NCBI RefSeq assembly: GCF_000237825.1
Contig: NZ_CM001377.1
Span: 372,001 to 436,000, forward strand
Origin: Thermanaerovibrio velox DSM 12556
GTDB taxonomy: Bacteria; Synergistota; Synergistia; Synergistales; Synergistaceae
Length of the DNA stretch: 64,000 nt
Reading direction: 5' to 3'
The notes under the pieces were generated by a model. The model made no database searches and was not told the DNA's origin. It was given only the letters and a program-made list of their open reading frames with translations. The position numbers and the translations under genes were made by a program. Numbering within the stretch: position 1 is the stretch's first letter; the number at the start of each line of letters is the position of its first letter. Shown here one piece after another: positions 1,037-9,394 of this stretch.

Positions 1037-1822
1037 TCAAGGTCCTAGGACGGCCCTCATTTTGCTGGTAAGATGCCGTACTTCCTCAAGTAGGCGCTCC
1101 TTGTCCTCCTGGTGCTTACTAACCAGGTCCATTATGGCGCTTCCAACCACCACTCCCTCCGCCAGAGCTGCCGCCCTCTGGGCTCGTTCGGGGTCCTTTA
1201 TGCCGAAGCCCACCACCGTAGGTATGCTAAAATGTCTCCTGACCCGCCGGAGGTAGCCCTCCATGTCCTCGTGAAGGTCCTTATGGGATCCGGTGGTCCC
1301 CAGCATTGAGACGCAATACACGAACCCCTTGGCATCTCTTCCCATCTCCTGGAGACGCTTCTCCGGCGAGTTGGGGGATACCATGGGGATGTTTATCAGT
1401 CCCTCACGATCCAGGGCAGTCCTTAGGCCTTTCCCTTCGTCGAACGGGAGGTCCGCCACGATAACCCCATCGATCCCGGCTTCCGCGGCCCGGCGGGCAA
1501 ATCGCTCATACCCATACCGCAGGATGGGATTCACGTATCCCATGAGAAGCAGCGGTACCTTAACGGAGTTCCTTAGGGTTTCTGCCAAATCCAGCACCGA
1601 GGCGAGGGTGGTTCCCCTCCTCAGTGATCGCTGTCCAGAGGCCTGTATGATCGGCCCGTCAGCCAGCGGGTCAGAGAATGGTATCCCCAGCTCCAATATG
1701 TCGGCTCCCGAACTTTCCAGGGTGGAGCAGATATCCGCGGAGGTGTTAATGTCCGGGTCCCCTGCCATTACGAAGGCGATGAGGGCCTTGCGGTTTTCGA
1801 ATGTTTTTTTAAGGCTGTTCAT
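1037..1822 (-). CDS. trpA: tryptophan synthase alpha subunit
   Basis: This subunit cleaves indole-3-glycerol phosphate to indole and glyceraldehyde 3-phosphate and passes indole to TrpB. The 261 residues match the usual length. The catalytic acids are visible as Glu44 ([11 protein letters not shown]) and Asp55 (LADGP), and a phosphate-binding Gly-rich stretch ([15 protein letters not shown]) follows. It is the last gene of the operon and its ATG overlaps the trpB stop by four bases, so the two subunits are probably translationally coupled. The terminator at 938-969 closes the transcript. Confidence 0.97.
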
Positions 1823-3003
1823 GGGTTATCGCCTCCAACGATGGATTTAACAGAATGCCTGTCCTTGTCGCCCCTTCCGGAGAGGTTTACGACCACCACT
1901 TGGTCCTTGTGGAGATCTGAGGCAAGGCGGATTGCATGGGCCACCGCATGGGCGCTTTCCAGGGCCGGTATGATCCCCTCCAGGCGGGATAGGATGAAGA
2001 AGGCTTCCAGGGCTTCCTGGTCCGTTACGGATGTGTATTCAGCCCTTTTGGTCTCCATGAGGAAGCTGTGTTCAGGACCCACACCGGGGTAATCTAGGCC
2101 AGCGGAGATGGAATACGCCTCGATTATCTGGCCGTCCTGGTCCTGCAGAAGGTAGGACCGGCAGCCGTGGAATACGCCTGGGCTTCCTGCCGTTAAGGAT
2201 GCGGCGTGAAGCCCCGTTTGAAGCCCCTTGCCTGCGCCCTCAACGCCGATGAGGCGTACGGATTTGTCGGGAATGAATGGATAGAACAGGCCTATGGCGT
2301 TGCTTCCGCCCCCAACACAGGCTATGAGGACGTCGGGAAGGCGCCCCTCGTACTGTAGGATCTGCTGGCGGGTCTCGTCTCCTATGACTCGCTGAAAATC
2401 CCTAACCAGCGATGGATATGGATGTGGTCCTACGGCGGAGCCGATTATGTAGTGGGTGTCCTCCACGTTAGCCACCCAGTGCCGGATGGCCTCGTTTGTG
2501 GCGTCCTTCAGCGTCATGCTTCCCGATGAGACGGGGATGACCTGGGCTCCCAGGATGTGCATCCTTTCCACGTTAAGGGACTGCCGTTTCATGTCCTCCG
2601 TCCCCATGAACACGTGGCATTCAAGTCCTAGCCGGGCTGCCGCGCTGGCCACCGCAACCCCGTGCTGACCCGCGCCGGTCTCTGCGATGACCCTGCGCTT
2701 CCCTAGGCGGCGGGCTAGCAGCGCTTGCCCTAGGGCGTTGTTTATCTTGTGCGCCCCCGTATGGTTTAGGTCCTCCCTCTTTAGATAGATCTTTGCCCCT
2801 CCGGCGTGTAGGGTCAGCCTCTCCGCAAAGGTCAAGGGGGTAGGGCGTCCCCCGTACCGGTGGAGCAGCTCTTTCAGTTCCTCTTGAAAAGCCCGGTCCT
2901 CCTTTATTTCATTGTAGGCCCTTTCCAGTTCTTCCAATGCGGGGATCAGGGTTTCTGGTACGAACCTCCCGCCGAAGGGGCCGAAATATCCATTACGTAT
3001 CAT
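1819..3003 (-). CDS. trpB: tryptophan synthase beta subunit
   Basis: PLP-dependent condensation of indole with serine to give tryptophan. The protein has 394 residues, normal for the TrpB1 type that partners TrpA. The PLP lysine is Lys86 in HTGAHKINN, and the phosphate-binding loop appears as [10 protein letters not shown]. The N-terminus [15 protein letters not shown] is typical of the family. The start overlaps the trpF end by 11 bases and the stop overlaps trpA. Confidence 0.97.
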
Positions 3004-3643
3004 GGATGATCACCTCTCTTGTTTTTGGGGTTCGGCCTTTAGCCGCCATGATTGCCATTCCCATGAGGCGGTGGTCTTTTATTCCATGGGATGTTTCGAT
3101 GGCGCTGTTTATGTCCACCCCATGGGGGCTTGCTTGCCTTATGGCCTTAGTTATGTTTTTGGGCCCCAACCCGCCGGCCAGGATGAAGGGGCGAGAAAAA
3201 CGGACTCCCTGCAGTAGAGACCAGTCAAAGGGCTGCCCAGTGCCTCCTGAAACGCCCTTTACCTTTGTGTCCAATAGGAAGAAGTGAGCCGCTTCCTTGT
3301 AGCTTTCCAGGGCTTCAAGGTCTTCCCTGAGAGAGATCCCGAGGGCCTTTATGGTTTTGATAGGAAGATTTGCAAGTAGAGAAGGGGGTTCGTTGCCGTG
3401 GAACTGGAGGTAGTCGAACATGCGGCTTTCAACTGCTTCCCGCAGCTCCTCTTCGGTGGGGTCCGCCATCACCCCCACCACGGAGAGGAACGGGGGAAGC
3501 CGTTGGATTATGGAAGCTGCTTGCCCAAGGCTGACCCTTCGGGGGCTTTGAGCCATAATGAAGCCCAAAGCATCGGCTCCCAGTCTGGCGGCCTCTAAGG
3601 CGTCCTCCTCCCTGGTGATCCCACAAACCTTTACCCGGATCAC
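2993..3643 (-). CDS. trpF: phosphoribosylanthranilate isomerase
   Basis: Isomerises phosphoribosylanthranilate to CdRP in the (beta/alpha)8 fold. The 216-residue sequence begins [15 protein letters not shown], with the catalytic cysteine at position 7, and ends with the phosphate-binding [12 protein letters not shown] and GVDINSAIE elements. It overlaps trpC by four bases and trpB by eleven. TrpF and TrpC are separate proteins here, not fused as in enterobacteria. Confidence 0.96.
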
Positions 3644-4389
3644 TCTATCAACCCCTTGAGCCTTTTTATGTGGGTAGAAGGGTTCTTGGAGACCATGAGG
3701 CTTTCCCCCACAAGGATCCCGTGAACCCCCGCCTTCTCAAGGAAGACCACGTCTTCCCGGCAGGATATCCCGCTTTCGGCTATCACATACCGGTGGCTTG
3801 AGGGTTCAAGTCGCCGGAGTTCCTCCATGATCCGGTACGTGGTGTTAAGGTTTACGGAGAAGTCCCGCAGGTCCCGGTTGTTGATGCCTATTATGTCCGT
3901 TTCGGTCTCCAAGGCTCTTCGGAGGTCCTCTTGGTCGTGCACCTCCACCACTGCCTCCAGACCGAGGGACCTTGCGGTTCCCAACATGCGCTGCAGCCTC
4001 TTACCAGGGAGTATGGCGGCTATTAGAAGCACCGCGTCGGCCCCTAGGAAGAGGCTTTCATAAACCTGTACCGGGTCCACGATGAAGTCCTTTCTAATAA
4101 AAGGGATATCTGCCTTAGGGCGGAGCTGCCGCATTATGTCTGGGCTTCCTTGGAAGAAGGGCTGGTCGGTCACTATTGAAATTCCGTCAGCCCCGCCTTT
4201 GATGTAGGCTTCAAGCTGTTTATCCGGCTCAAAGGGGTCCGCCAAGATGCCCTTGCTGGGACTGGCCTTCTTTATCTCCCCTATTATGGAGATTCCCGGC
4301 GTGGCCAGACGGGCCTTCAGAGACAGCTTGGGGCCTTTTATCTTCTGCACCTGGTGGTTTTTCTCAAGCACTATGCGGTCCAGTATCAT
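3640..4389 (-). CDS. trpC: indole-3-glycerol phosphate synthase
   Basis: Converts CdRP to indole-3-glycerol phosphate. The 249-residue TIM barrel shows the family signature EIKKASPSKG at residues ~38-47, the catalytic lysine region FIRKDFIVD, the GINNRDL motif and the C-terminal SGI...GILVGESLM phosphate loop. It overlaps trpD by four bases. The order trpD-trpC-trpF matches the ancestral bacterial arrangement. Confidence 0.97.
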   Translation of the reverse strand: MILDRIVLEKNHQVQKIKGPKLSLKARLATPGISIIGEIKKASPSKGILADPFEPDKQLEAYIKGGADGISIVTDQPFFQGSPDIMRQLRPKADIPFIRKDFIVDPVQVYESLFLGADAVLLIAAILPGKRLQRMLGTARSLGLEAVVEVHDQEDLRRALETETDIIGINNRDLRDFSVNLNTTYRIMEELRRLEPSSHRYVIAESGISCREDVVFLEKAGVHGILVGESLMVSKNPSTHIKRLKGLIE

Positions 4390-5420
4390 ACTGCCTCCTC
4401 CTTTCCTGTTATTGACCTGGAGAATCGGACCACCTCTTCAAGCTTTTTCATAGCAAGGCCGCTGTCTATGATTTGTTCTGCCATGCGGGCTCCTTCGAAT
4501 ATCCCGGTGGTTAGCCCGTCCACGTACAGTGCGGCGGCGGCGTTGAGCACCACCACGTCTCTCATTGGCCCCCTCATGCCGCCGAATATGTCCAACAAGA
4601 TCCGGCGGTTCTCGTTTACGCCGCCTCCTGAGGCGTACCCCAAGGGTGCTCTGCTTAGCCCCGCGTCCTCGGGAAGTATCTCCATGTCCTGGATCTTCCC
4701 TCGGTTCAGCAGACACACCCTGTTGGGACCGCTAAGCGAAAGCTCGTCCAACCCGCCATGGCCGTGAAACACCATTGCCCTACTGACCCCGAGTAGGGCC
4801 AGGACCTCAGTTATGGGCCGGACCAGCTTGGGGGAGAAGACCCCCACCAGCTGGTGGGATGGCTTTGCTGGGTTTGAGAGGGGGCCTAAGATATTGAAGA
4901 TAGTTCGAAGCCCTATGGCCTTCCGTATCGGGGCGACGTTTTTCATGGGACTGTTGAAGTGGGGAGCGAAGATGAAGCCGTAGCCAGTTTTGCTGATGCA
5001 GGCTTTCACGTCCTCTGGCTTATCTAACAGCGGTATCCCTAGGGCTTCCAGGATGTCGGCGCTTCCGCAACGGCTTGATACGGATCGGTTCCCGTGTTTG
5101 GCCACCAAAGACCCCGCCGCGGCGGCTATGAACGAGGCGCCGGTGGATATGTTGATGGTACCAGCACGATCACCGCCGGTTCCAACGATGTCAATGAGGG
5201 TTTTCCCCTTTAGATTTACAGGAACGACTTTGCTCCTGATCACCGAAGCTGCGGAGGCTATCTCCTCCACGGTCTCTCCCTTGGCGCGAAGTCCCGCCAG
5301 GAAGGCCCCCACCAGGGCGTCGGGCTCACCGCCGGACAAGATGCTTTCCATGGCGTCCGCCATCTCTTGGGGAGCAAGGTTTTTCCCCGATAGGATCTTT
5401 TCAAGTTGCTCCTTTAGCAT
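4386..5420 (-). CDS. trpD: anthranilate phosphoribosyltransferase
   Basis: Transfers phosphoribose from PRPP to anthranilate. From the ATG at 5420 the product is 344 residues, the usual size. GTGGD at ~80-84 is the PRPP/Mg loop, followed by KHGNRSVSSRCGSAD. A longer in-frame reading upstream (to 5714) only runs through trpG in another frame and was not used. The chosen ATG overlaps the trpG stop by seven bases. This is a stand-alone TrpD, not the TrpGD fusion of enterobacteria. Confidence 0.96.
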   Translation of the reverse strand: MLKEQLEKILSGKNLAPQEMADAMESILSGGEPDALVGAFLAGLRAKGETVEEIASAASVIRSKVVPVNLKGKTLIDIVGTGGDRAGTINISTGASFIAAAAGSLVAKHGNRSVSSRCGSADILEALGIPLLDKPEDVKACISKTGYGFIFAPHFNSPMKNVAPIRKAIGLRTIFNILGPLSNPAKPSHQLVGVFSPKLVRPITEVLALLGVSRAMVFHGHGGLDELSLSGPNRVCLLNRGKIQDMEILPEDAGLSRAPLGYASGGGVNENRRILLDIFGGMRGPMRDVVVLNAAAALYVDGLTTGIFEGARMAEQIIDSGLAMKKLEEVVRFSRSITGKEEAV

Positions 5421-6007
5421 TGATGTCCCAGCTCCTTCCCAGCGGGTTTTGTGTGGTAGAAATTCCTGATGATCCTCATGCCCCCTTCGGTGAGTATCGA
5501 TTCGGGATGAAACTGGACACCAAAGAGGGGAAGGCTTAGGTGTTGAAGCCCCATGACGGTTCCGTCGTCCGCCCTGGCGGTGACCGTTAACTCCTTGGGG
5601 AGAGAGTTTTCTTCCAACACCAGCGAGTGATAGCGGGTGGCTTTGAAAGGGGTGGGCAGTCCGTAGAAGATCCCCTTTCTGTTGTGATAGATGGAGGAGG
5701 TCTTGCCGTGGCACGGTTTAGCCGCCCGAACGAGGCGTCCACCCATGGCGCAACCTATCGCCTGGTGTCCCAGGCAGACCCCCATGATGGGGATCCGCCC
5801 CATGAAGACCCGGATCACTTCCATTGACACTCCCGCCTCCTCCGGGGTCCCGGGTCCAGGGGATATGACGATGTGTGAAGGGTTCATGGCCTTGATCTTT
5901 GAAAGTGTGATCCGGTCGTTTCGGAACGTCCGTACATCATCCAGCTCCGATAGGTACTGCACCAGGTTCCAGGTAAAGGAGTCGTAGTTGTCTATCATCA
6001 GGATCAT
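5414..6007 (-). CDS. trpG: anthranilate synthase glutaminase subunit
   Basis: Class I glutamine amidotransferase that feeds ammonia to TrpE. The 197 residues contain the nucleophile Cys78 in GVCLGHQ, the His/Glu pair in QFHPES at ~166-170, and the ISPGPGTPEEAG oxyanion region. The start overlaps the trpE stop by four bases, which favours equal synthesis of the two subunits. It could in principle also serve a 4-amino-4-deoxychorismate synthase, as in Bacillus. No pabB is present in this window. Confidence 0.95.
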   Translation of the reverse strand: MILMIDNYDSFTWNLVQYLSELDDVRTFRNDRITLSKIKAMNPSHIVISPGPGTPEEAGVSMEVIRVFMGRIPIMGVCLGHQAIGCAMGGRLVRAAKPCHGKTSSIYHNRKGIFYGLPTPFKATRYHSLVLEENSLPKELTVTARADDGTVMGLQHLSLPLFGVQFHPESILTEGGMRIIRNFYHTKPAGKELGHQC

Positions 6008-7560
6008 CTCGTACCTTCTCCTTTCGCCGCCATCTGCAGGGCCCTTTTCATGGCTTTGAACATGGCCCCAGCCTTGCTTAGGGTCTCTTGGTACTCCATC
6101 TCCGGATCCGAATCGTAAACTACGCCCGCCCCGGCCTGAATGTGTACCCTGTCATCTTCTTTAACGATGGTCCTTATGGTTATGCAGGTGTCCATGCTCC
6201 CCTGGAATCCCAGGTAGCCCACCGCTCCCGCGTATGGTCCCCTTGGGGTGCCTTCCAGCTCTCCTATGATCTCCATTGCCCTGATCTTGGGAGCCCCCGA
6301 TACGGTGCCCGCCGGGAAGGAGGAGATCAGAAGGTCCAGCGGAGTAGCCTCTGGTCTTTTTTGCCCTTCCACCTGAGATACGATGTGCATCACCTGGGAG
6401 TACTGCTCTATGCCCATGAGCTCGGTGACCCTTACGCTTCCGGGCTGGCATATCCTTCCAAGGTCGTTGCGGGCCAGGTCAACCAGCATTATGTGCTCCG
6501 CCCTTTCCTTTTCGTTCCCCAGCAGTTCCAGTGCGGCGCGCCTGTCCTCCTCTTCCGTATCTCCCCTTCTGCGGGTTCCGGCGAGCGGACGAGTGACGGC
6601 CTTGGATCCCGCGAGCTTCACATGGAGCTCCGGCGACGAGCCTATGAGGGTGATATTCGGCAGTTCCAGTAGGAAGTGATATGGGGAGGGGTTGCATGCC
6701 TTGAGGGCTCGGTAGATTAGCGTGGCGGGAAGGTTGGTTTTGGCGGAGAACCTTTGGGAGAGGACCACCTGACATATGTCCCCCGCTATTATGTGCTCCC
6801 GCCCCTTTCGGACCATGTCTAGGAAGTCCTCTTTCGTCATGAGTGGCTTTAGTGGATTGAGGAAAAAGGAGGTCCCTTGGGGCATTTTATGGTCTAGATA
6901 GGACTCCAGGAATCCCCTTAGGCCCTCCAGTTTTAAACAGGCCATCCTGTATAGCCCCTCTAGGCCTTCCTTTCCCATGTCCCTTGGGATGTGTTGGTTA
7001 ACCACCAGGAACAGCTTGTCACCTAGGTGGTCTATGGCTATCACGGAGGAGAACCCCATGAGTGACGCCATTGGGAGATGAGAGCAGGGCAGGGCTTTGC
7101 CTTCGTTTCTGTGGAACAGATCCTCCCAGGCGCTTATTATGTCGTATGCGAAGTATCCCGCCGCTCCTCCAAGGAACGGGGGAAGGTCATCTCTGACGGG
7201 AGGGTATGTGCCGGCCAGGTAGTTTCCCAGGGCTTTTTTAAGCCCATCCCTGCCGGGGAACTCCGCCAAGGTCCTGCCCTGGGGGCTGGTTTCAATGCAG
7301 ATGTTGTTGGAAAATGTGAAAATTCTGTCCGGCTCGGTTCCTATAAATGAATACCTGCCCCACCTGCCCTGTGGGTCCGGGGTCTCCATGAGGAAGCTTC
7401 CTTGGGGAGACCTTTTGAGACTTTCGTAGATCATGAGGGGGTCCCGTCCCTGGAGGCTTAGTTCCATTATCACCGGTACTCTTTCGAATTCAGAGCAGAG
7501 CCTTATGAAATCCTCAAGGGACGTAAGATTTTCTCTTCCCCTGATTTCGTGAACTCCCAT
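6004..7560 (-). CDS. trpE: anthranilate synthase component I
   Basis: Chorismate-utilising enzyme and first committed step to tryptophan. I place the start at 7560 (MGVHEIRG), 518 residues, because AAGGAGG lies 8 bases before that ATG. The longer open frame upstream runs through the attenuator. The C-terminal catalytic block is complete (LAGTRRRG, LVDLARNDLGRI, PAGTVSGAPKIRAMEII, IQAGAGVVYDSDPE). The N-terminal region that usually reads LLES, the Trp feedback site, here reads FLMET at 56-60; whether this changes inhibition cannot be told. Transcription is controlled by the attenuator at 7581-7788. Confidence 0.95.
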   Translation of the reverse strand: MGVHEIRGRENLTSLEDFIRLCSEFERVPVIMELSLQGRDPLMIYESLKRSPQGSFLMETPDPQGRWGRYSFIGTEPDRIFTFSNNICIETSPQGRTLAEFPGRDGLKKALGNYLAGTYPPVRDDLPPFLGGAAGYFAYDIISAWEDLFHRNEGKALPCSHLPMASLMGFSSVIAIDHLGDKLFLVVNQHIPRDMGKEGLEGLYRMACLKLEGLRGFLESYLDHKMPQGTSFFLNPLKPLMTKEDFLDMVRKGREHIIAGDICQVVLSQRFSAKTNLPATLIYRALKACNPSPYHFLLELPNITLIGSSPELHVKLAGSKAVTRPLAGTRRRGDTEEEDRRAALELLGNEKERAEHIMLVDLARNDLGRICQPGSVRVTELMGIEQYSQVMHIVSQVEGQKRPEATPLDLLISSFPAGTVSGAPKIRAMEIIGELEGTPRGPYAGAVGYLGFQGSMDTCITIRTIVKEDDRVHIQAGAGVVYDSDPEMEYQETLSKAGAMFKAMKRALQMAAKGEGTR

Positions 7561-7580: not shown

Positions 7581-7622
7581 AAATTAAAAGAGCCGGGGGC
7601 TCTTGTGTTAAGGCCCCCGGCT
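7581..7622 (-). terminator. trp attenuator terminator hairpin
   Basis: AGCCGGGGGC (7613-7622) pairs perfectly with GCCCCCGGCT (7591-7600), followed on the minus strand by CTTTTAATTT. It sits between the leader peptide and trpE, 20 bases before the trpE start, as an attenuator should. Its left arm can instead pair with 7653-7661 (AAGGCCCC with GGGGCCTT), giving an antiterminator. Confidence 0.85.
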
Positions 7623-7653
7623 TAGTGGTTTTATCAGCTGAAGAACGACAGAG

Positions 7654-7696
7654 GGGCCTTGGAAGCGGTTCCGGCAAGGATCCACCTCCAAGGCCC
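7654..7696 (-). promoter_or_regulatory. trp leader anti-antiterminator hairpin
   Basis: GGGCCTTGGA (7687-7696) and TCCAAGGCCC (7654-7663) form a 10-bp perfect stem in the trp leader RNA. Its right arm overlaps the segment that can pair with the terminator's left arm. Its left arm can alternatively pair, with a bulge, with 7727-7735, next to the segment that pairs with the Trp codons. These mutually exclusive helices fit a ribosome-position switch. The pairing was worked out by eye, not folded. Confidence 0.6.
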
Positions 7697-7743
7697 ATCG
7701 CTGATTTGGACGTCGGCGATTTATATGGCCCTTGGCGGCGGAC

Positions 7744-7788
7744 TCAGGGAGCCCGCCACCACCAGTTTTGAAGTCTTAGGAAAAGCAT
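7744..7788 (-). CDS. trpL: trp operon leader peptide
   Basis: A 14-codon reading frame encodes MLFLRLQNWWWRAP, with three consecutive TGG codons at 7756-7764. AAGGAGG (7800-7806) lies 11 bases before the ATG, and a near-consensus promoter lies just upstream. The Trp-codon segment TGGTGGCGG (7753-7761) pairs with CCGCCGCCA (7733-7741). When tryptophanyl-tRNA is scarce a ribosome stalled on the Trp codons would block this pairing and let the antiterminator form; when Trp is plentiful the terminator at 7581-7622 would form. It is too short for ordinary gene finders, and the peptide itself probably has no other role. Confidence 0.88.
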   Translation of the reverse strand: MLFLRLQNWWWRAP

Positions 7789-7826
7789 CTTGGGTTAATC
7801 CTCCTTGGATCTGGATATTGGAAGGG

Positions 7827-7855
7827 ATTTTAGGGTTCAGTGTTTTCGTTGTCAA
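7827..7855 (-). promoter_or_regulatory. trp operon promoter
   Basis: TTGACA (7850-7855), a 17-base spacer and TAAAAT (7827-7832) on the minus strand match the sigma-70 consensus almost perfectly. The start site should fall near 7820, about 30 bases before the leader-peptide ATG. No obvious TrpR operator overlaps it. Confidence 0.8.
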
Positions 7856-8102: not shown

Positions 8103-8591
8103 TTGAGGCCATCGGATTCGGGCATGAGGGAGAAAGCCTCGGCCCTTAGAGCGGCCCTTAGGGGCCTTGTGAGGGGCCTTGGCCTTCTGGACAGGGATGG
8201 GGCATGCTGTGGGGGGGTAACCTTGGCCCAGTGTCACGCCCTAGGAGAGATCGCAGACTCCGGCGGGCTGTCGTTGATGGAGCTGTCCCGAAGGCTTGGG
8301 CTCCATAAGAGCACCGTGAGCAGGACCGTTGATCCTCTGGTGGAAATGGGGTTGGTGGCCCAGGAGAGGGATCCATTGGACAGGAGGCGGTACGTTCTGT
8401 CCCTCACAGCTAAGGGGGTGGAGGTGGAAAGACGCATATCCGCCACCGTGGAGCTTCGGTGTCTTCGGATACTCGAGGCCCTTGACCCAGCATCCCATGA
8501 CAAGGTGCTTTCCGGGGTGGAGGAACTGCTCATGGGGCTTAGAAAGGCCCTTGAGAAGGAAGAAGGGGAGTGTGATTGCGTTGACCTTTAG
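8103..8591 (+). CDS. MarR family transcriptional regulator
   Basis: The 162-residue winged-helix protein shows MarR features: LSLMELSRRLGLHKSTVSRTVDPLVEMGLV (recognition helix, residues ~55-85) followed by the wing RDPLDRRRYVLSLTAKG. The start used is TTG at 8103, 8 bases after GGGGGTG; ATG at 8124 is the alternative. A cysteine pair early (ACCGG) and Cys-Asp-Cys near the C-terminus (ECDCVDL) could bind a soft metal or metalloid, which would fit the arsM-like gene that overlaps its end. That last point is inference. The gene most likely controls the small operon 8103-9881. Confidence 0.85.
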   Translation: MRPSDSGMREKASALRAALRGLVRGLGLLDRDGACCGGVTLAQCHALGEIADSGGLSLMELSRRLGLHKSTVSRTVDPLVEMGLVAQERDPLDRRRYVLSLTAKGVEVERRISATVELRCLRILEALDPASHDKVLSGVEELLMGLRKALEKEEGECDCVDL

Positions 8592-9394
8592 TGATTTTTC
8601 TTCCCACGGGGCAAGGGAGATAAAGGAGAAGGTGAGGAAGAGGTACGCGGAGAACCTGGTTTCGAGAAGCTGTTGTGGCAGCTGCGGCTGTGGAGGCTTG
8701 GAGGCCATAACGGAGGGTAACTACGGCGAAGAGCACATGTCCGTGGTGCCCCAGGGGGCGGAGCACGTGTCCTTTGGATGCGGCAACCCGGTGGAGCACG
8801 CGGATCTCATGCCCGGGGAGCGGGTGCTGGACCTTGGGTGTGGAACTGGGCTTGACGCCCTGCTGGCGGCGGTGCAGGTGGGGCCTGAGGGGTCCGTGGT
8901 GGGGCTTGACATGACGCCCCAGATGATAGAGAGGGCCCGATCCAACCGAATGGCCTGGGGGCTTGACAACGTGGAGTTCCTCCTGGGGGAGGATGGAGCG
9001 CATACCCCTGCCGGATCTATCGGTGGACGTGGTCATCTCCAACTGCGTGATCAACCTTTCCCCTTTGAAGGAGGCGGTTTTCGCCGAGTCCTTCCGGGTT
9101 CTCAAGGAGGGTGGGCGTTTTGTGGCCGCCGACGTGGTGGCCCTGCGCCCGGTCCCTGCTGAGCTTAAGCGGAACTTTGAGGCCTTCAGCGGATGTCTTG
9201 CAGGGGCCCTTTCGGTGGAGGGTTTCCGTTCGATGCTCCTTGAGGGGGGGTTTTGCTCTGTAGATGTGAAGGTTATTAAGAAGTACCGATTCTCAGGTGA
9301 AGACGCGGAACGGCTCTTCGGGGCCGAGGTGGAACAGTTGGACCAGGCCTTCGGCAGCGCGGTGGTGTTGGCTAGGAAGGGGGCGGCCCGTTGA
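8581..9394 (+). pseudogene. arsM: arsenite S-adenosylmethionine methyltransferase, frameshifted
   Basis: Two adjacent reading frames together make one ArsM-type methyltransferase. The first frame gives EKVRKRYAENLV, a Cys-rich SCCGSCGCGG segment, and the SAM-binding motif VLDLGCGTGLDALLAA. The second gives MERIPLPDLSVDVVISNCVINLS and the rest of the fold to 9394. They join if one G is removed from the G-rich run near 8985-8992. The start is probably TTG 8581 (GGGGAG 10 bases upstream), with GTG 8572 as the alternative; both overlap the MarR gene. ArsM adds methyl groups to As(III), making volatile or less toxic products. A single-base error in the sequence is as likely as a true mutation, although the next gene is also broken. 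Confidence 0.8.

Follow-up and report, generated by a model that had tools for sequence, protein, structure and literature searches.

The trp operon and its leader

The window, a stretch of 64,000 nucleotides from Thermanaerovibrio velox DSM 12556, carries on its minus strand a trp operon in which trpE, trpG, trpD, trpC, trpF, trpB, and trpA are directly consecutive without a gap. The best NCBIfam match of the first structural gene, trpE (6004–7560), was TIGR00564 with 479 bits, which is under the equivalog cut-off, and the other six genes follow in the above order at 1037–6007. On the same strand, a promoter scan located a −35 element, TTGACA (7850–7855), and a −10 element, TAAAAT (7827–7832), with a spacer of 17 nt, forming a promoter (7855–7827) that matches the consensus at 11 of 12 positions. 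It is followed by a ribosome-binding site, AAGGAGG (7800–7806), and an ORF for a leader peptide, MLFLRLQNWWWRAP (7744–7788), which consists of 14 codons starting with the ATG at 7788 and ends with a UGA stop codon at 7746–7744. Three tandem Trp control codons, UGG UGG UGG, are present in it at 7756–7764. Thus, the near-consensus promoter, the ribosome site, and the 14-codon peptide with three Trp residues, which had been claimed in the original prediction, were all present. Promoters with at least 10 of 12 consensus positions were also found 5′ of 43 of the 58 related elements, compared with 0.8% of shuffles.

The remaining part of the leader can be described as six segments linked in a chain of five helices, terminator included. 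Segment 1 (7749–7761), which overlaps the Trp codons, forms a 13-bp helix (1:2) between 7761–7749 and 7745–7733 of segment 2 (7727–7745). Segment 2 can alternatively pair through 7743–7727 with 7696–7680 of segment 3 (7678–7696) to form helix 2:3 (−29.7 kcal/mol), segment 3 through 7696–7678 with 7672–7654 of segment 4 (7653–7672) to form helix 3:4, and segment 4 through 7661–7653 with 7618–7610 of segment 5 (7610–7622) to form helix 4:5 (−18.0 kcal/mol). Segment 5 is also the left arm of the terminator, helix 5:6, in which 7622–7610 pairs with 7604–7591 in the right arm, assigned by folding as segment 6 (7591–7604), and a U-rich tail, CTTTTAATTT (7581–7590), follows. The fold of the leader was more stable (−111.4 kcal/mol) than that of dinucleotide shuffles (−82.9 kcal/mol; z −5.7, 0 of 200), and the energy of the five-helix chain was reached by 0 of 60 shuffles. 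The mutually exclusive helices that had been predicted were present, with helix 2:3 being longer than first described, and so was the T-tailed terminator before trpE, which lies about 20 nt ahead of the gene and has a modest tail. The count of five segments, with one helix above that of E. coli, had to be corrected to six segments and five helices, compared with four and three in E. coli trpL. This is of importance because a stall on segment 1 acts correctly on the terminator only when the number of segments is even, as are the four of E. coli trp and the six found here.

Conservation and covariation in Synergistota

To place the leader in its phylum, we used a comparison set of 188 genomes of Synergistota, 48 of which gave a trpE match. 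A leader with in-frame WWW (CWW once) and a strong terminator was found before trpE at 34 loci, which represent 33 distinct leaders in 17 genera, and the leader peptide pattern xWWW[QR] was found in about 30 other loci. A loss of the Trp codons or of the pairing, which would speak against the prediction, was looked for in close relatives and was not found in the trpE-bearing congener (G052), the leader of which is MLFLRLQNWWWRTP and in which two G-U pairs of helix 1:2 become A-U or U-A. The leader is not universal, however, because the family to which the window belongs also includes a group of divergent trpE genes (about 40% identity) that lack it. Another complete genome of the same genus (G051) encodes the trp RNA-binding attenuation protein TRAP and has neither a trpE match nor the element, which suggests that the trp operon was lost within the genus. 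A trpE homology search of wider genome contigs yielded distant relatives only, which belong to other phyla and are mostly 31–48% identical over long stretches, and no convincing relative of the element was found in the leaders of these genes. Weak matches came from L011 and L012, each of which has a short ORF rich in Trp codons. In L012 (about 68–160), from a deltaproteobacterial MAG, the short ORF METSERKSVTTALRNWWWRCF... lies 5′ of trpE, and the model matches there weakly (E 0.14); this leader could be either a relative of the element or a product of convergence.

Covariation was evaluated by a swap test using one sequence per genus (17), in which the duplex energy with the own partner was compared with that with partners from other genera. 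As a result, z was −3.4 for 1:2, −5.0 for 2:3, −6.4 for 3:4, −3.05 for 4:5 (7 of 5000 permutations), which is the weakest of the five in this respect, and −10 for 5:6. The values for the control pairs 1:3, 3:5, 2:5, and 4:6 were within ±1.4, and those for 2:4 and 3:6 were −1.8 and −2.2, the latter being the largest. All five neighbouring helices thus covary across the 17 genera, and the non-neighbouring control pairs nearly all do not. Pair counts in a sequence alignment of 25 elements (A2) indicated that 95.4% of the positions in 1:2 and 3:4 were paired, with a covariation score of 0.272 compared with 0.187 in shuffles, and that 92.9% were paired in 2:3, with a score of 0.185 compared with 0.107, the native score beating 500 of 500 shuffles and slid control pairings being paired only to 32–54%. 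A covariance model (R1), for which 1:2 and 3:4 served as the helices of the termination state, was then used to align 19 elements outside its training set, antisense model matches being excluded before pairs were counted. This alignment is independent of 2:3, and the downstream genes of the 19 elements, where identified, are other than trpE. Helix 2:3 was 92% paired in them, compared with 30–52% when slid, and its covariation score exceeded that of 500 of 500 shuffles, although pairs with changes in both bases were no more numerous than in shuffles in this smaller set. Relatedness inflates all of these shuffle counts, and the genus sampling in the swap test, which reduces shared ancestry and does not remove it, is the main guard. 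Taken together, the comparison with relatives that had been proposed as a check brought out both conserved Trp codons and covariation, the latter in all five helices.

Genes preceded by the element

In a search with R1, at least 46 genomes of the 188-genome set contained the element at E ≤2e-7, and others gave weaker matches. The element precedes trpE and also trpD/trpC/trpB operons, the latter mostly in genomes without detected trpE, as well as trpB or trpB-like genes. It was furthermore found before a sodium:solute symporter (f11), a neurotransmitter:sodium symporter (G167), a TrpP-like transporter subunit with an ABC ATPase (G036), a transporter of the Na+/H+-antiporter family (G081), and an amidohydrolase with an MFS transporter (G027). 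Two genomes, G181 and G187, have Phe-Tyr-Tyr-Trp as control codons (VKKMIVTGFFYYWQ... and VKKNNASGCFYYWQ...), each in an ORF with a GTG start and a Shine-Dalgarno sequence. These Phe/Tyr/Trp leaders (FYYW, FFYYW), which lie at L188:238–434 in G187 and at about 3444–3646 of L194 on the minus strand in G181, precede a membrane protein that matches no Pfam family and that an M20 peptidase adjoins in G187. Judging from their codons, these elements probably sense aromatic amino acids generally.

A second leader class (KGLWWW, NNGLWWW, and KGLWWWWWF; genomes G036, G041, G027, and G150) has unrelated segment sequences and the same five-helix chain. Its members (L204, L206, L207, and L209) are found before trpD, the TrpP-like transporter, or the amidohydrolase with the MFS transporter. 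The chain energy was reached by 0 of 60 shuffles in each of the 12 elements so analyzed, including those with unrelated segments. A further R1 match in the window's own genome (G000:C1:1147621; E 0.006) was rejected as an element, as it represents only a terminator-like hairpin.

Proposed switching mechanism

In the window's leader, a short ORF preceded by a ribosome site contains consecutive codons for the end product of the operon, an intrinsic terminator, although with a modest T tail, lies between this ORF and the first structural gene, and the antiterminator helices exclude each other and covary. We therefore consider it very probable that trpEGDCFBA is controlled by ribosome-mediated transcription attenuation through a six-segment RNA switch. 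The attenuation itself, as originally proposed, is strongly supported by the Trp codons, the promoter, and the conserved and covarying helices, and it is in the detail of five segments that the proposal did not hold. When Trp is scarce, a ribosome stalled on the UGG codons would mask segment 1, so that 2:3 would form, leaving segment 4 free for 4:5; the terminator 5:6 could then not form, and RNA polymerase would continue into trpE. When Trp is ample, a ribosome at the UGA stop codon would mask most of segment 2, allowing 3:4 and 5:6 to form and transcription to terminate. Without translation, 1:2 would form, next 3:4 and 5:6, which would result in termination, too.

The folding of partial transcripts agrees with this order of events. 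A transcript that extended to 7680 formed 2:3 (−32.9 kcal/mol) when the ribosome was placed at the first Trp codon. With the ribosome at the stop codon, there was weak structure only (−11.7 kcal/mol), with segment 3 being available to segment 4, and 1:2 was formed without a ribosome. Equilibrium folding of the entire leader gave the termination state alone (3:4 and 5:6), even with segment 1 masked, indicating that antitermination must be kinetic. The termination state is likewise favored at equilibrium, by helix energies, in E. coli hisL. We infer that the ribosome stalls on the Trp codons, that kinetic trapping maintains the 2:3/4:5 state, and that the charging of tRNA-Trp sets the read-through, by which Trp would regulate the operon.

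The middle hairpin, 3:4, may have an additional function. The ten bases 3′ of its core contained a mean of 6.0 T compared with 2.6 expected, and at least 6 T in 15 of the 25 aligned elements, when counted at the fixed columns 141–150 of alignment A2 (also L198 and L199); a search for T tails after the energy-maximized hairpin was uninformative, as long extended stems swallow the tract. The tract of the window has 4 T in 10, at the weak end of the range. From these counts, 3:4 may itself be a first terminator in many relatives, in which case a single stalled ribosome would release two terminators.

Alternative explanations

It is extremely unlikely that the leader is an ordinary four-segment attenuator of the E. 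coli type, with 1:2, one antiterminator, the terminator, and a passive middle hairpin. The leader of the window does share Trp codons and a terminator with E. coli trpL, but its segment 2 does not covary with the terminator arm (z +0.3 for 2:5), 2:3 and 4:5 both covary, and, without the middle switch, 4:5 would have the wrong sign. With regard to the middle hairpin, the near-invariant GGAGGCGGAUCC side could be imagined to be a riboswitch-like site that binds a ligand or protein, to which the leader peptide merely adds, considering that, the Trp codons aside, no part is more conserved or more stable than 3:4. The conserved side is, however, explained by its dual pairing with segments 2 and 4, both of which covary; the motif is altered in the KGLWWW and f11 classes with the five-helix chain being kept, and there was no Rfam match. 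We accordingly regard such a site as very unlikely.

Control by TRAP as in Bacillus subtilis is the least probable of the alternatives, although the genome does encode TRAP (MtrB) at L123:1465–1710 (G000:C1, near 743990), identified by a match to NF009724 with 137.7 bits, which is above the cut-off. A TRAP-controlled trp leader has about 11 (G/U)AG repeats with a spacing of 2–3 nt in the leader or gene start. Such repeats were absent from the leader and trpE start of the window, where the longest (G/U)AG chain was 1, and neither a strict array of five repeats nor a TRAP target site was found in the genome. Moreover, conservation of the leader extends to genera in which no TRAP gene was detected. 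Given the missing repeats, control of the window's leader by TRAP was rejected. The absence of a T-box or TRAP signature, noted in the original prediction, held for this leader, although the genome has the TRAP gene. There was no T-box match in the window; three sub-threshold T-boxes are present elsewhere in the genome, with specifier regions that do not read UGG. The genome also encodes two proteins of the TrpR family, of which a member, HisR, is known from this phylum (PMC9413887).

The preferred reading, attenuation by the six-segment switch, may coexist with TRAP in some relatives. TRAP was found in 57 of the 188 genomes, some of them without detected trpE, including the trpE-less congener, and (G/U)AG chains near the trpE start were longer in TRAP-positive than in TRAP-negative genera (P = 0.02, 12 vs 5), which is a point in favor of TRAP, as is the presence of its gene. 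Repeats of (G/U)AG over the trpE start were observed in the TRAP-encoding L086, L006, L078, L092, and L100, the clearest chain being that of L086 (GAGccGAGttGAGttGAGacGAGccGAG), and these are possible TRAP sites that would complement the leader attenuator. To our knowledge, the leader-peptide attenuator and TRAP occur in separate lineages in known systems. We tentatively suggest, as a possibility that is not the likelier one, that a single trp mRNA might be read in part of the phylum by two independent Trp sensors, the attenuator responding to charged tRNA-Trp at transcription, often with tandem terminators, and TRAP responding to free Trp by blocking translation at the (G/U)AG repeats of the trpE start.

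Comparison with known attenuators

The helix scan was also applied to trpL and hisL of E. coli K-12 (L212 and L213), and both controls behaved as expected. In trpL, it gave a three-helix chain of four segments; this leader shares with that of the window the tandem Trp codons, a leader peptide of 14 residues, which overlaps segment 1, and the terminator before trpE, and differs in having two segments and two helices fewer. In hisL, it gave five helices, A:B (−15.1), B:C (−16.7), C:D (−17.2), D:E (−18.9), and E:F (−31.2), so that the E. coli/Salmonella leader has, like that of the window, a six-segment chain ending in the terminator. The window leader thus has the his-type topology with Trp codons. 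It differs from hisL in having Trp instead of His codons and no sequence or Rfam his-leader match, and many of the Synergistota elements have a U-rich tract 3′ of the extra hairpin. The extra hairpin of hisL, between the pause hairpin and the terminator, has been proposed to lower basal read-through and to prevent read-through once the ribosome leaves the stop codon (Elf and Ehrenberg, PMC1183508), and, by analogy, it may have the same role in the Trp leader.

No match to RF00513 (Trp_leader) was found in the window even at E 10. Matches to Rfam regulatory RNA families stayed below threshold in the window and were absent from 13 loci of relatives, and no amino acid leader family was among those obtained up to E 10 in the leader of the window. 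The ermK attenuator of Bacillus has a longer alternation of helices, senses macrolides rather than amino acid supply, and is not known to be related in sequence. It is similar to the window's leader in that ribosome stalling in the leader ORF favors an antiterminator (PMC5418344). Leader-peptide attenuators of Actinobacteria and Firmicutes also have control codons, alternative helices, and a terminator (PMC1262725, PMC2965389, PMC9413887). A survey in 2010 listed leader-peptide systems as known in Proteobacteria and Actinobacteria only and added Firmicutes (PMC2965389). In the open-access full texts searched, there was no description of a leader-peptide attenuator in Synergistota, although papers beyond these texts could contain one. 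The class of mechanism is hence old and the topology is known from his, and it is the Trp codons on this topology, the phylum-wide regulon, and the codon-switched subgroup that appear to be undescribed.

These findings extend leader-peptide trp attenuation to a phylum for which no description was found, with the long his-type chain being used for Trp. The approximately 50 genomes represent a natural series, in which the chain is constant and the segments, the codons (WWW, WSW, WWWWW, and FYYW), and the target genes vary, and which should allow tests of the benefit of the extra hairpin, the retuning of control codons, and the sharing of a regulon between attenuation and TRAP. As a minor observation elsewhere in the window, a methyltransferase-like gene on the plus strand (8329–9394) appears to be split over two overlapping reading frames beside a MarR-like regulator (8103–8591), and it is possibly frameshifted.
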